DNA from: Candidatus Colwelliibacteriota bacterium
GTDB taxonomy: Bacteria; Patescibacteriota; Minisyncoccia; UBA6257; Colwellbacteraceae
NCBI GenBank assembly: GCA_027448785.1
Contig: DAIDMW010000006.1
Span: 1 to 35,908 of the forward strand
DNA length: 35,908 nucleotides
Direction: 5' to 3'
The notes under the pieces are model-generated. The model was not told the origin of the DNA, made no database searches, and saw only the letters and a list, made by a program, of their open reading frames with translations. A program made the position numbers and the translations under genes. Positions 24,537 through 28,328 of this stretch are shown here, piece after piece (positions within the stretch are counted from its first letter, which is position 1; each line of letters begins with the position of its first letter).

Positions 24537-24612
24537 AGCGCAAAACTAAAAGCTAAAAGCGAAAAACAACAACGTAGTTCTTTTGCGTTTTACGCTTTTC
24601 GCTTTGCGCTTC
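24537..24612. repeat. Family-I palindromic element (copy 4), 3' of the Cax-like gene
   Basis: agcgcaaaactaaaagctaaaagcgaaaaac arm versus cttttgcgttttacgcttttcgctttgcgctt arm. Confidence 0.85.
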
Positions 24613-25658
24613 TAGGGGTGCAGAAAAAATGCGACGGCCATTATCGCATAAGCCATCAATAGCTGCAGCCCCTCCAGCCAGTTGCTTTCGCCGTCTTGGA
24701 TAACCAAGTTGGTGATCAAGACAGAAAGAACGATGGAGATCAGCTCAAAGGCGTTGAAGACCAAGCTCATCTGCGCTTTGAAAAGCAGGCTGAAGAGAAC
24801 CAAAACCGGAGCCACGAAAATCGCGATCTGCGTAGCCGAACCGATGGCGATATGTAAGGCCAAGTCCATGCGGTTTTTAACAGCGGTCACAATGGCCGAG
24901 GTGTGCTCCGCGGCATTGCCGACGATGGCTATCAAAACCACACCGATGAAAAGAGGCGTCCACCCCAAGGTATGAATAGCCGGCGCAATACTGCCAACCA
25001 AGATTCCACTCATCCAGGCTACCGCCGCGGTAGCCAAAGCCAGGATCAACAAACTCTTCCATACGCTCCACTTCGATTCCAATTCGACGATCTCGTCCTC
25101 ATAAAGATGCCGGTGGGTGCGCAAGGAAAAGAGCAGGCTGGCCCCGTAAACCGCCAGCATGACGATCGAAACAAAAATACTCAAGTCGGTAACCCTGCCT
25201 CCCCCGGCCAACGGCGCGGCTTGGGCGAAGATAGCCGGCATCACCAGAGCGATAACGGCTAGGAGCATGGTCGAACTGGCTGCCATAGCGCTGGTCTTGT
25301 TGAACTTTTGCTTCTTATGCTTCAGACCGCCGGCTAGCATCGCTGTCCCTAAAACGAGAAGCAAGTTGCCAATAATCGAGCCGGTTATCGAGGCCTTGAC
25401 CACGCTGACCAACCCGGCCTGAATGGCGAAAAATCCGATGATTAATTCCGTGGCGTTGCCGAAAGTGGCGTTTAAGAATCCGCCGAAGGCCGGGCTGGTA
25501 CGGGCGGTTATTTCCTCGGTCGCCTCGCCGATGTATTTAGCGAGAGGAATAATGGCCGCCGCGGATAACAGAAAAACAAGGCTAGGTGCCACATGTAAAT
25601 AATCGGCTATTAAAGTAGCTGGAATAAAAAGCAGTAAAATTAAAAATGTCTTTTCCAT
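24612..25658 (-). CDS. Ca2+/H+ antiporter, CaCA superfamily (Cax/ChaA-like)
   Basis: Two pseudo-repeats: GNATELIIGFFAIQAG...SITGSIIGNLLLVLG and GNAAEHTSAIVTAVKNRMDLALHIAIGSATQIAIF. Confidence 0.93.
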   Translation of the reverse strand: MEKTFLILLLFIPATLIADYLHVAPSLVFLLSAAAIIPLAKYIGEATEEITARTSPAFGGFLNATFGNATELIIGFFAIQAGLVSVVKASITGSIIGNLLLVLGTAMLAGGLKHKKQKFNKTSAMAASSTMLLAVIALVMPAIFAQAAPLAGGGRVTDLSIFVSIVMLAVYGASLLFSLRTHRHLYEDEIVELESKWSVWKSLLILALATAAVAWMSGILVGSIAPAIHTLGWTPLFIGVVLIAIVGNAAEHTSAIVTAVKNRMDLALHIAIGSATQIAIFVAPVLVLFSLLFKAQMSLVFNAFELISIVLSVLITNLVIQDGESNWLEGLQLLMAYAIMAVAFFLHP

Positions 25659-25670
25659 TTTGACTGCGCT

Positions 25671-26243
25671 TTATAAGATTTCTAAGTGTGGGCGAGGAGG
25701 GACTTGAACCCTCAAGGTCTTTCGACCACAACATTTTAAGTGTTGCGCGTATGCCGATTCCGCCACTCGCCCAGCATTTTTTCTTGTTCGATTTCTGTAG
25801 GTTGGTTTTAAACTATGGCAATTCGGGCATAGTACCCTTAAATTACTTAACCTATTATCATGCCTGTCCCCGTTAATATGATCTAACTCTAACGGTAAAT
25901 AACCGCCTCTAGTCTTCTCTGCCCAACCGCATTCTTCACAATATAACGGTTTTAACCCTTCGGCAAATAACCTATTCTTAAGCTTAAAACTCTGAAAAAA
26001 GCTGTCCCTTATTAGAATTTCCTCCAAAGGAGTTCGAGGATGTCCAATGCCAACTAATCCCGAACTCCAACCCTTTCCTTTAAAGTGTTTAACATTTAGG
26101 CCTAATTCTTCGATATATTTTTTTATTTGATCATAATTTCCTCCAGCCTCTCGCAATCCCAACTTTGCCAAAACCTGTCTATAACTAAAAGAGTTTTTAA
26201 CCGCATTTTTCAGCTGTCTACTTGTCCAACTTCTCTTTCGCAC
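25671..26243 (-). CDS. HNH endonuclease-like protein; ORF extends in frame through tRNA-Leu
   Basis: CEEC...LELDHINGDRHDNRLSNLRVLCPNCHS (HNH with zinc-knuckle cysteines); N-terminal helix-turn-helix-like segment. C-terminal GRVAESAYAQHLKCCGRKTLRVQVPPRP is the translated tRNA. Confidence 0.8.
   Translation of the reverse strand: MRKRSWTSRQLKNAVKNSFSYRQVLAKLGLREAGGNYDQIKKYIEELGLNVKHFKGKGWSSGLVGIGHPRTPLEEILIRDSFFQSFKLKNRLFAEGLKPLYCEECGWAEKTRGGYLPLELDHINGDRHDNRLSNLRVLCPNCHSLKPTYRNRTRKNAGRVAESAYAQHLKCCGRKTLRVQVPPRPHLEIL
25689..25772 (-). tRNA. tRNA-Leu (anticodon UAA)
   Basis: Acceptor GGGCGAG/CTCGCCC, discriminator A, anticodon stem-loop CAACA-CTTAAAA-TGTTG, variable arm, T-arm GGGTTCAAGTCCC. 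3' CCA not encoded. Confidence 0.95.
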
Positions 26244-26294
26244 TTCTTAATAATACTAAACTAATGGTAGACGCGCCATTGTATTAATAAAGAA

Positions 26295-26323
26295 CTACCG
26301 CAACACAAGCGGTGCGGTATTTT
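26295..26323. terminator. Terminator-like hairpin taccgca...tgcggta followed by tttt
   Basis: 7-bp inverted repeat with T-tract, in the rpiB/HNH spacer, adjoining the structured element. Confidence 0.5.
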
Positions 26324-26374
26324 CATATTCTATATATACTCGCCGCAAGCGGCGAGGTATTGTAGGTGAAAACA
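26320..26374. repeat. Structured intergenic element, copy 2: TTTTCAT ... CTCGCCGC-AA-GCGGCGAG-GTATTGTAGGTGAAAACA
   Basis: Same layout as 70-130; the inner stem has a compensated base-pair change. Confidence 0.8.
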
Positions 26375-26391
26375 GATCTACCTTTTATCTC

Positions 26392-26841
26392 CTACTCTAT
26401 CTGTAAATTCCGTATCTTCTCCAGGCGGCGCTTGTGCCCCTCCTTGCCATCGAATTCGGTTTGCAGCCAGATGCTCACAATTTTCTTGGCTATCTCGGGA
26501 TCCAGAAAATCGGCCGGCAAGGCGATCATATTGGTATCGTCGTCCGTGCGTGAAGCCATTGCCTGGTCGGGGGAAAAAGTCAGAGCACAGCGAACCAACG
26601 GAAAGCGGTTGGCGACGATATCCATGCCAACACCGGAACCGCAGAACAACAATCCTCGGCTGCCCAAGAAATCCGCTCCGACTTTTTTGGCGACTGCCGC
26701 GGCGTAGTCGGGATAATCGTCGTCCGGCGTCAAAGCCGGCGCGCTTAAATCAACCATTTGGTACCCGCTCTGCTGCAAGTACTGCTTGATGGTTTCCTTG
26801 AGGGCGAATCCTCGGTGATCGGCTCCTAAGTAGATAATCAT
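26392..26841 (-). CDS. rpiB: Ribose-5-phosphate isomerase B (RpiB/LacAB family)
   Basis: IYLGADHRGFALKETIKQYL...YPDYAAAVAKKV...GLLFCGSGVGMDIVANRF. Start moved to ATG 26841. Confidence 0.95.
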   Translation of the reverse strand: MIIYLGADHRGFALKETIKQYLQQSGYQMVDLSAPALTPDDDYPDYAAAVAKKVGADFLGSRGLLFCGSGVGMDIVANRFPLVRCALTFSPDQAMASRTDDDTNMIALPADFLDPEIAKKIVSIWLQTEFDGKEGHKRRLEKIRNLQIE

Positions 26842-28328
26842 GGTTGAGTAGCAGTGGAAGAAATATCTGACCCGGCCTCGTACCAATTCGCAAGGTTTCC
26901 GCCATCGGTTGCTCCGAACTGCGCCTGATATTTAGAGCTTTCTAACGGAACATAAATTCGGTACTGGCCGAAGGTTTTGTCTAACCTGATCGCGTAGAAA
27001 CATCCCACGGCAGAAAATTGGCAGATAGGCGAATTGTTAGCCGGATCAATAGGTAAGCCGGATAATGGCGAGCCTCCCGGCAAAACGTTGAAATTTATCG
27101 GCACCCAGCCGGTTCCGTCAGTTGAGGTTGATTCGGAAACTAAGCACTTTCCCCCGCCGGGGAAGGAACCATTGCCTCCGCTGCAATACAGCCCAGTCTT
27201 CCAAGTAGTCGTCTGGACGTCGGCCAGCCATTGAGATATAGCGGAATTTAAAACCATCGCATCCTGTACCCGCTGTGAATCCCTAGCTTGCTGGAGAATC
27301 GCGCCAACCGATGATTGGGATGACGGAGAGATAAACGAGCCGAAAATGAAATTCAAGGCTAGGATGGGAATAGCGATAATAGCCGCAACTCCCAACCAAG
27401 CCGAAAACACGAAGAAGCCTCGCTTGCCAGAAACTTGAGCCTCAGCTAACTGTGGCTTGACCTCCATCAAATTCTTAAAAATCAGATATTCAAATATCAC
27501 CGCGAAGGGAACGGTTACCAACTGCACAATGTAGGAAATTACCAATCCGACGTCCGGACTAAGCGAAGCGAGAAACCTGACGGCGAGATCGATGATCCAA
27601 AATATTATTCCCAGGATAAACAATCTCCAGGCGACACCCCACCAATATCCCGTGACGTACTCCTTGCTGCGCAGAAGAGCCTTAATCCCCCTTTGACCTT
27701 GGAATACGTAAACAAAAATCGCAAATACGAACCAGACGCCGAAAATGAATGCCGGAATTATTCCCATTACTAAGCCGCCGAAACCGATGAAGAAACTGAG
27801 TAATAATATCCAATAGTAATTAAAAGCCGTCTTCCAAGCTTTAGCGTAAGATTGAGCAATATTTGATTGATCTTTTAGCGAATAAACCATTCCCAAGCCA
27901 GCCAAACCACTCAGTAATATAAAAACCACGAAGGCGGCGGCAGCGATAATCCCCGACGACACCGCCGGATTTCGGCTAAAATTGGAAACTAACGGAGAGA
28001 AAACTAAAGCGGAAAGCAAAATCGGAAAAACGTAAATCCCGACCATAATCCAAACTTTCTCCTTAAATATTTCGCCCGCGCTGTTAAAAAGGTTAGTAAA
28101 CGCCGCCAAGCGGGGTAAGCCATTCCGAGCGCTTGGCGCAACAGTTACCGGCTCGACAGCGTCTGTTTTTTCGCCAACGGCCGCTGGCCGTTGATTGTTT
28201 TCTCCCAAACATTCTCGCACCTCCTCTTCTCCGTATCCGGCGGCGGTCAATAATTTAACGATCGACTCGTCACTGTTCCCCTTCTCTTTAAAATCCTCTA
28301 CTAGCGCGCGCAGATTATCGCTATCCAT
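26838..28328 (-). CDS. Multi-TM membrane protein with short helical N-terminal domain and a type IV pilin-like C-terminal domain
   Basis: TM domain paralogous to the next gene; C-terminal QQARDSQRVQDAMVLNSAISQWLAD...GTGWVPINFNVLPGGSPLSGLPIDPANN resembles pseudopilin segments. Confidence 0.75.
   Translation of the reverse strand: MDSDNLRALVEDFKEKGNSDESIVKLLTAAGYGEEEVRECLGENNQRPAAVGEKTDAVEPVTVAPSARNGLPRLAAFTNLFNSAGEIFKEKVWIMVGIYVFPILLSALVFSPLVSNFSRNPAVSSGIIAAAAFVVFILLSGLAGLGMVYSLKDQSNIAQSYAKAWKTAFNYYWILLLSFFIGFGGLVMGIIPAFIFGVWFVFAIFVYVFQGQRGIKALLRSKEYVTGYWWGVAWRLFILGIIFWIIDLAVRFLASLSPDVGLVISYIVQLVTVPFAVIFEYLIFKNLMEVKPQLAEAQVSGKRGFFVFSAWLGVAAIIAIPILALNFIFGSFISPSSQSSVGAILQQARDSQRVQDAMVLNSAISQWLADVQTTTWKTGLYCSGGNGSFPGGGKCLVSESTSTDGTGWVPINFNVLPGGSPLSGLPIDPANNSPICQFSAVGCFYAIRLDKTFGQYRIYVPLESSKYQAQFGATDGGNLANWYEAGSDISSTATQP

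Follow-up and report, generated by a model that had tools for sequence, protein, structure and literature searches.

Does an HNH endonuclease gene that runs without a stop codon through an entire tRNA gene reflect a conserved way of controlling the nuclease, or does it point to something else? We addressed this question for a stretch of 35,908 nucleotides (nt), called the window throughout, which makes up positions 1 to 35,908 of contig DAIDMW010000006.1 from a Candidatus Colwelliibacteriota bacterium (Patescibacteriota; assembly GCA_027448785.1). Comparison of the locus with its homologs suggests that the HNH gene is probably a free-standing homing endonuclease gene that parasitizes the tRNA-Leu(UAA) gene and carries a restored, resistant tRNA with it. 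The features at the center of the question are the following:

25671..26243, minus strand: HNH endonuclease open reading frame (ORF) with a GTG start and a TAA stop at 25673-25671, 190 residues; match to phrog_10822 with E=1.6e-43 and to Pfam HNH above the gathering score
25773-26243, minus strand: homologous HNH core of 157 residues; the remaining 33 codons are tRNA-encoded or lie just past the tRNA
25688..25772, minus strand: tRNA-Leu(UAA), identified by ARAGORN; the only copy found in the window's genome

The preliminary description had reported an HNH frame that lacks a stop before the tRNA and reads through all of it, and the coordinates of the ORF and of the ARAGORN prediction bear this out: the frame is open across the entire tRNA-Leu(UAA), and its first stop, a TAA, lies just beyond the tRNA 3' end. 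The GTG start was also correctly placed, as it aligns with the ATG of the homologs and is preceded by an in-frame TAA 3 nt upstream. Similarity of the window protein to other HNH proteins stops at residue ∼155-157, which corresponds to the first tRNA base. The last 33 residues, encoded by the tRNA and the few bases after it, have no homolog, and we rejected a homologous or functional tRNA-encoded C-terminal tail because none of the homologs shows similar sequence beyond that boundary.

The protein matches Pfam HNH (PF01844/PF13392) and phrog_10822 and has the beta-beta-alpha metal motif, the conserved cysteine pairs, and the catalytic histidine of HNH enzymes. Positions C105, H122, C139, C142, and H143 are invariant in the family, and C102 is nearly so. 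The predicted architecture is an N-terminal helical domain and a zinc-bound HNH domain. Searching the PDB returned relatives limited to the HNH domain of McrA-type enzymes, with no useful full-length match. An RNA-guided nuclease of the IscB/HEARO type, which combines RuvC and HNH, was ruled out, as the 157-residue core scored 14.6 bits against an NCBIfam cut-off of 175 and matched the HNH part only.

We collected 100 distinct homologous genes, tblastn-confirmed from genome contigs and supplemented by an evenly drawn set of 380 genomes from the phylum; they come from Patescibacteria, Elusimicrobia, and Omnitrophica. Ninety-five lie directly against the 5' end of tRNA-Leu(UAA) and two against tRNA-Leu(CAG); one is located at a contig end, and two were scored as having no such neighbor. 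One of the latter (L008) has a partly masked tRNA-Leu(UAA) downstream, raising the counts to 96/100 beside the 5' end of tRNA-Leu(UAA) and 98/100 beside a tRNA-Leu; in the other (L030, the same as L117) the HNH gene is on the 3' side of tRNA-Leu(UAA). The adjacency that the preliminary description had raised is thus conserved, and the tRNA is nearly always the UAA isoacceptor. A location directly 3' of tRNA-Leu(UAA), rather than 5', was seen at L116, L121, L117/L030, and L143, and at L116 and L121 the HNH gene also abuts a following tRNA-Leu(CAG). tRNA-Cys(GCA) is often found 55-280 nt upstream of the homologs, and this order of tRNA-Cys and tRNA-Leu recalls the Gly-Cys-Leu tRNA cluster of E. 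coli.

The position of the stop codon varies among the homologs. The ORF ends entirely before the tRNA in 53/97, mostly with a gap of 0-6 nt, and overlaps the tRNA, or stops inside or beyond it, in 44/97. An open tRNA frame alone is unremarkable, because many tRNA-Leu(UAA) genes lack a stop in one frame or another (frame 0 is open in 39/95 and frame 2 in 57/95). Where the tRNA frame has no stop, 29 of 30 loci stop ahead of the tRNA, whereas just 24/67 do so where the tRNA frame supplies one (Fisher P=5e-9, uncorrected for relatedness). HNH ORFs appear to use their own stop or to borrow that of the tRNA, while running through the whole tRNA appears to be avoided and selected against. Since the window is the single exception among the 30 open-frame loci, its read-through is best read as a private stop loss and looks like a recent one, not a conserved switch. 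The earlier suggestion of a mobile gene at a tRNA that lost its own stop agrees with this, the stop loss being probable from the 29/30 comparison and the mobility being supported by the evidence below.

If RNase P cuts at the tRNA 5' end, the HNH mRNA would lose its stop codon in the window and in every other homolog whose stop overlaps the tRNA, and this may lower the level of HNH protein. One could go further and suppose that the missing stop is a switch conserved across the family, by which the processing of the tRNA by RNase P would remove the stop codon of HNH and hold down the amount of nuclease. Stops overlap the tRNA in 44/97 homologs, a shared transcript is likely, and a transfer-messenger RNA (tmRNA) is present, all of which would suit such a switch. 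We nevertheless consider it very unlikely, as 53/97 homologs have their whole stop ahead of the tRNA, only the window reads through all of the tRNA while other loci avoid doing so, and many stops inside the tRNA are simply the nearest available ones. Comparing the stops therefore upheld the overlap of HNH and tRNA in many homologs, but a non-stop mRNA made by full read-through, which the preliminary description had proposed, did not hold up as a conserved mechanism.

We next consider the signals upstream of the HNH gene, which in the window are:

26250..26255, minus strand: -10 hexamer TATTAT, its first base 12 nt before the GTG; predicts a transcription start at the start codon (leaderless)
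26266..26274, minus strand: GCGTCTACC, downstream arm of an inverted repeat, the reverse complement of the tRNA-Leu D-arm motif GGTAGACGC; putative operator
26291..26301, minus strand: GCGGTAGTTCT, at the position of the upstream D-arm-like arm; a poor, weak match in the window copy

In 41/95 loci the best -10 hexamer starts 12 nt ahead of the start codon, and in 17/95 it starts 13 nt ahead, well above shuffled sequences. This predicts a leaderless HNH mRNA that starts at the start codon if these bacteria have an ordinary sigma-70-like promoter geometry. This placement explains why no obvious Shine-Dalgarno sequence had been seen. A -10 signal directly before the tRNA, that is, inside the HNH 3' end, was not enriched above shuffles, and an internal tRNA promoter was rejected on this ground. 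With a strong promoter signal before the HNH gene and none before the tRNA, a shared transcript, as considered earlier, is likely. The promoter is overlapped by an inverted repeat with TGGTADACGC ∼57 nt and GCGTHTACC ∼28 nt upstream of the HNH start. The upstream arm is present in 79/97 and the downstream arm in 73/97 loci (shuffled sequences gave means of 27.6 and 15.7, and the wrong orientation gave 28 and 20), and true arm pairs match better than swapped arms in 1000/1000 shuffles. TGGTADACGC is the tRNA-Leu D-arm sequence, and the repeat of this motif is probably an autorepressor site.

The genes on either side of the HNH-tRNA pair allowed a direct comparison with relatives lacking HNH:

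26392..26844, minus strand: rpiB-like gene, the upstream neighbor, in synteny with HNH-free relatives
24612..25658, minus strand: calcium/proton antiporter-like gene (cax), the downstream neighbor, syntenic in the congener G002; named from inspection of the sequence, with no family search behind the name
25729..25745, minus strand: anticodon stem-loop of the HNH-associated type, CAACA CTTAAAA TGTTG (C30:G40)

G002 has rpiB (97% identical in protein), tRNA-Leu(UAA), and cax (91%) in the same order as the window, without HNH. The two tRNAs are identical at only 61 of 84 positions (73%) while the flanking genes are 85-87% identical in DNA, and the tRNAs of the more distant congeners G001 and G004 match that of G002 at 81-82 of 83 positions. 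Because of this discrepancy, the sequences indicate that the tRNA of the window was replaced whole, together with the gain of HNH. In another genome, G003, a tRNA identical to that of the window at 79 of 84 positions (94%) lies beside rpiB without HNH; this state is as expected after loss of HNH, and other histories are possible.

The replaced tRNA differs in a specific part. The HNH-lacking congeners G001, G002, and G004 have the stem-loop GAGGA CTTAAAA TCCTC, and HNH-lacking G003 has the CAACA/TGTTG type of the window. A G at base 40 (pair 30:40) is found in 81/95 loci with HNH (HNH+) versus 2/78 genomes without it (HNH-) sampled from the same phylum. Among families containing both kinds of genome, nine change from C/T40 to G40 with HNH and none in the opposite direction; two (f34 and f68) keep C40 with HNH, and in f65 and the family of the window some HNH- genomes also have G40. 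It is the anticodon stem in which HNH+ and HNH- tRNAs mainly differ (60%, against 22% when HNH- genomes are compared with each other); elsewhere the tRNA stays near baseline. G40 also occurs where HNH is 3' of tRNA-Leu(UAA) (L030/L117, L116, and L121). Immunity through the D-loop alone was considered and rejected: HNH+ tRNAs favor GGTATAC, yet the upstream arms show no single form, and the anticodon stem gives the stronger contrast.

These data could also be read the other way round, with C30:G40 as the susceptible state and HNH invading only lineages that already have this stem. Several HNH-lacking genomes in the window's family do have C30:G40, as this reading predicts. It is improbable in our view, since HNH+ genomes keep a complete tRNA gene of that type and would cut themselves, nine families would need the same multi-base stem change before invasion, and between G002 and G000 the whole tRNA changed along with the gain of HNH. 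As a separate observation, the HNH-lacking relatives of the window with the C30:G40 stem are L085, L086, L087, L092, and L097, and their stems are possible scars of lost HNH genes.

At several loci, a copy of tRNA nt 1 to 22-27 is present upstream of HNH, at -75..-36 from its start. These relics end at the border of D-arm and anticodon stem. The match is 24/25 at L129, and the relics at L005, L012, L015, L038, L063, L070, and L071 exceed all shuffled controls. Apparent relics at L004, L032, and L056 were discarded as pieces of the neighboring tRNA-Cys. The window itself has one candidate:

26312..26365, minus strand: CTACAATAC followed by GGCGAGT..., where CTACAATAC resembles the promoter of the tRNA in G003; may be what is left, in decayed form, of a former tRNA promoter and 5' end, from a weak alignment to L085

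The relics bear on the main rival explanation, a poison-antidote pair acting on RNA, in which the HNH protein would cleave the anticodon stem of tRNA-Leu(UAA), with the linked, resistant variant of the tRNA as antidote, the pair being kept as a selfish or a defense module. The altered part is exactly the anticodon stem, the altered stem is present even with HNH on the 3' side of the tRNA, and a defense system in which an HNH nuclease domain cleaves a tRNA is known (Septu, PMC13096335). However, RNA cleavage leaves unexplained why relics end at nt 22-27, why the insertion is at the tRNA 5' edge, and why a D-arm DNA motif lies in the promoter, and we consider this explanation unlikely.

The distribution of the HNH gene is patchy. 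A full-length copy is present in 1/27 genomes of the window's family, and matches are found in 28/380 genomes of the phylum. Copies from Elusimicrobia and Omnitrophica are nested among those of Patescibacteria in the HNH tree (with moderate support, only some branches being starred), and labels in the tree are partly clustered by lineage. Presence or absence at one site, with empty sites in relatives, is what was found, as for a free-standing homing endonuclease, and the sequences also point to horizontal transfer with co-conversion of the flanking target. No plasmid relatives of HNH were found. Broken copies occur (L138, L140, and L141/L142), and dN/dS, the ratio of nonsynonymous to synonymous substitution rates, is 0.01-0.18 in close pairs of HNH genes, which indicates strong purifying selection. 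This selection and the partial clustering by lineage would fit a host gene that is inherited vertically, takes part in tRNA expression, and was lost in most lineages. Such an origin is hardly credible, given the low frequencies in family and phylum, the foreign tRNA in the window, the relics, and the presence of the gene in Elusimicrobia, Omnitrophica, and phages.

Overall, we favor homing at the DNA level. The protein would recognize the D-arm DNA of the tRNA gene (TGGTADACGC) and, in susceptible alleles (stem NNRGA/TCYNN), cut within or next to the DNA of the anticodon stem. With an HNH+ donor as the template for repair, the recipient would gain the promoter, the HNH gene, and a fresh 5' portion of the tRNA whose anticodon stem is altered (CRRCA/TGYYG). 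The essential tRNA would thereby be intact again and protected from cutting, and its former 5' portion would stay upstream as a decaying relic. In the window, the entire tRNA would have been exchanged. HNH would be transcribed without a leader from its own, probably autorepressed promoter, and the tRNA would depend on the HNH transcript or on one from further upstream.

Several observations weigh against homing as outlined here. In some cases the whole tRNA travels and in others only the part up to nt ∼43, and in the window itself the upstream arm and the relic are only weak. G40 is absent from 14 of the 95 HNH+ loci; a case in point is the pair G113/G085, whose tRNAs are identical although only one member has HNH. 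In L222 and L223, a same-genus pair that departs from the altered-stem rule, again only one has HNH, and the tRNA-Leu(UAA) is identical and of the C40 type. HNH- relatives in the window's family carry G40 (5 of the 14 seen, including G003); we read these as cases of HNH loss, but G40 could also be a permissive state. Finally, the Fisher P value ignores relatedness.

Similar arrangements exist at other tRNAs. Phage relatives of the HNH gene abut tRNAs: in Gordonia phage GodonK (L206:1422-2009) the gene overlaps tRNA-Glu by 10 nt, and in Rhodococcus phage Dorin (L207:1421-2010) it exactly fills the space between tRNA-Glu and tRNA-Gly. A second HNH family, distinct from the first (L003-like; L003:1287-1802, L267:1495-2007, and L268-L272) is near tRNA-Thr in 7/7 loci of Patescibacteria, with tRNA-Thr(CGU) following in five and tRNA-Thr(UGU) preceding in two. 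The stop codon is formed by tRNA-Thr nt 8-10 (UAG) at L003 and L267 and lies just before the tRNA at L268. A broader idea is a class of isoacceptor-specific selfish elements of bacterial chromosomes that capture an essential tRNA gene and bring a resistant tRNA with them. The nuclease would act on the tRNA gene or, in a stronger form that we regard as improbable, on the tRNA molecule itself. If true, a capturing element would be hard to lose without losing the only tRNA-Leu(UAA), and separate HNH families would do so at tRNA-Leu(UAA) and tRNA-Thr.

If homing at tRNA-Leu(UAA) is right, bringing along a restored, protected tRNA is what lets a mobile nuclease persist in a bacterial chromosomal gene for an essential RNA that is not spliced. 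It would predict a cut site (anticodon-stem DNA), a binding site (D-arm), and a resistant allele readable from sequence, would make homing in uncultured Patescibacteria testable in vitro, and would offer a reason for abrupt anticodon-stem switches of tRNA-Leu(UAA) between close relatives. The family is also a case of protein genes taking their stop codons from a tRNA.

Among the closest known systems are the phrog_10822-like HNH endonucleases of phage tRNA arrays (GodonK and Dorin), related proteins that are ∼40% identical to the window protein and also squeezed against tRNA 5' ends; they differ in being phage-borne and in lying beside tRNA-Glu, -Gly, -Val, -Leu, and others. Group I introns occur in tRNA-Leu(UAA), the same tRNA gene hosting a selfish element. 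Unlike there, the HNH-associated tRNA is contiguous, with the HNH gene outside it and the insertion at its 5' edge, which rules out a group I intron-encoded homing endonuclease. Judged by titles and abstracts, the open-license literature yielded no publication on this HNH-tRNA arrangement. SegB of phages T4 and T6 is described in passages of PMC13096335 as a free-standing GIY-YIG homing endonuclease by tRNA genes that cuts inside them and spreads the tRNA region, and microhomology of the segB 3' end with a tRNA 5' end is reported there. It resembles the HNH family in adjoining tRNA genes, but has another nuclease fold, is phage-borne, and is not tied to one isoacceptor; the passages on SegB describe no leaderless promoter, borrowed stop, or resistant anticodon stem. 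I-TevI, a GIY-YIG enzyme that is intron-encoded, unlike the HNH family, is autoregulated through an operator that lies across the endonuclease promoter and resembles the homing site but does not contain the sequence that is cleaved (PMC2988022). An operator copying the binding site over the promoter would be shared with the HNH genes, where the inverted D-arm-like repeat points to it. Finally, mobile LAGLIDADG or GIY-YIG ORFs in the fungal mitochondrial genes atp6, atp9, cox2, and nad3 bring a foreign host-gene end that restores the gene and leave the native end as a relic (PMC3630166). They share with the proposed HNH element the combination of an endonuclease ORF, a carried part that restores the host gene, and a native part left as a relic, but they are organellar, have other nuclease folds, and restore a protein C terminus, not the 5' part of a tRNA.
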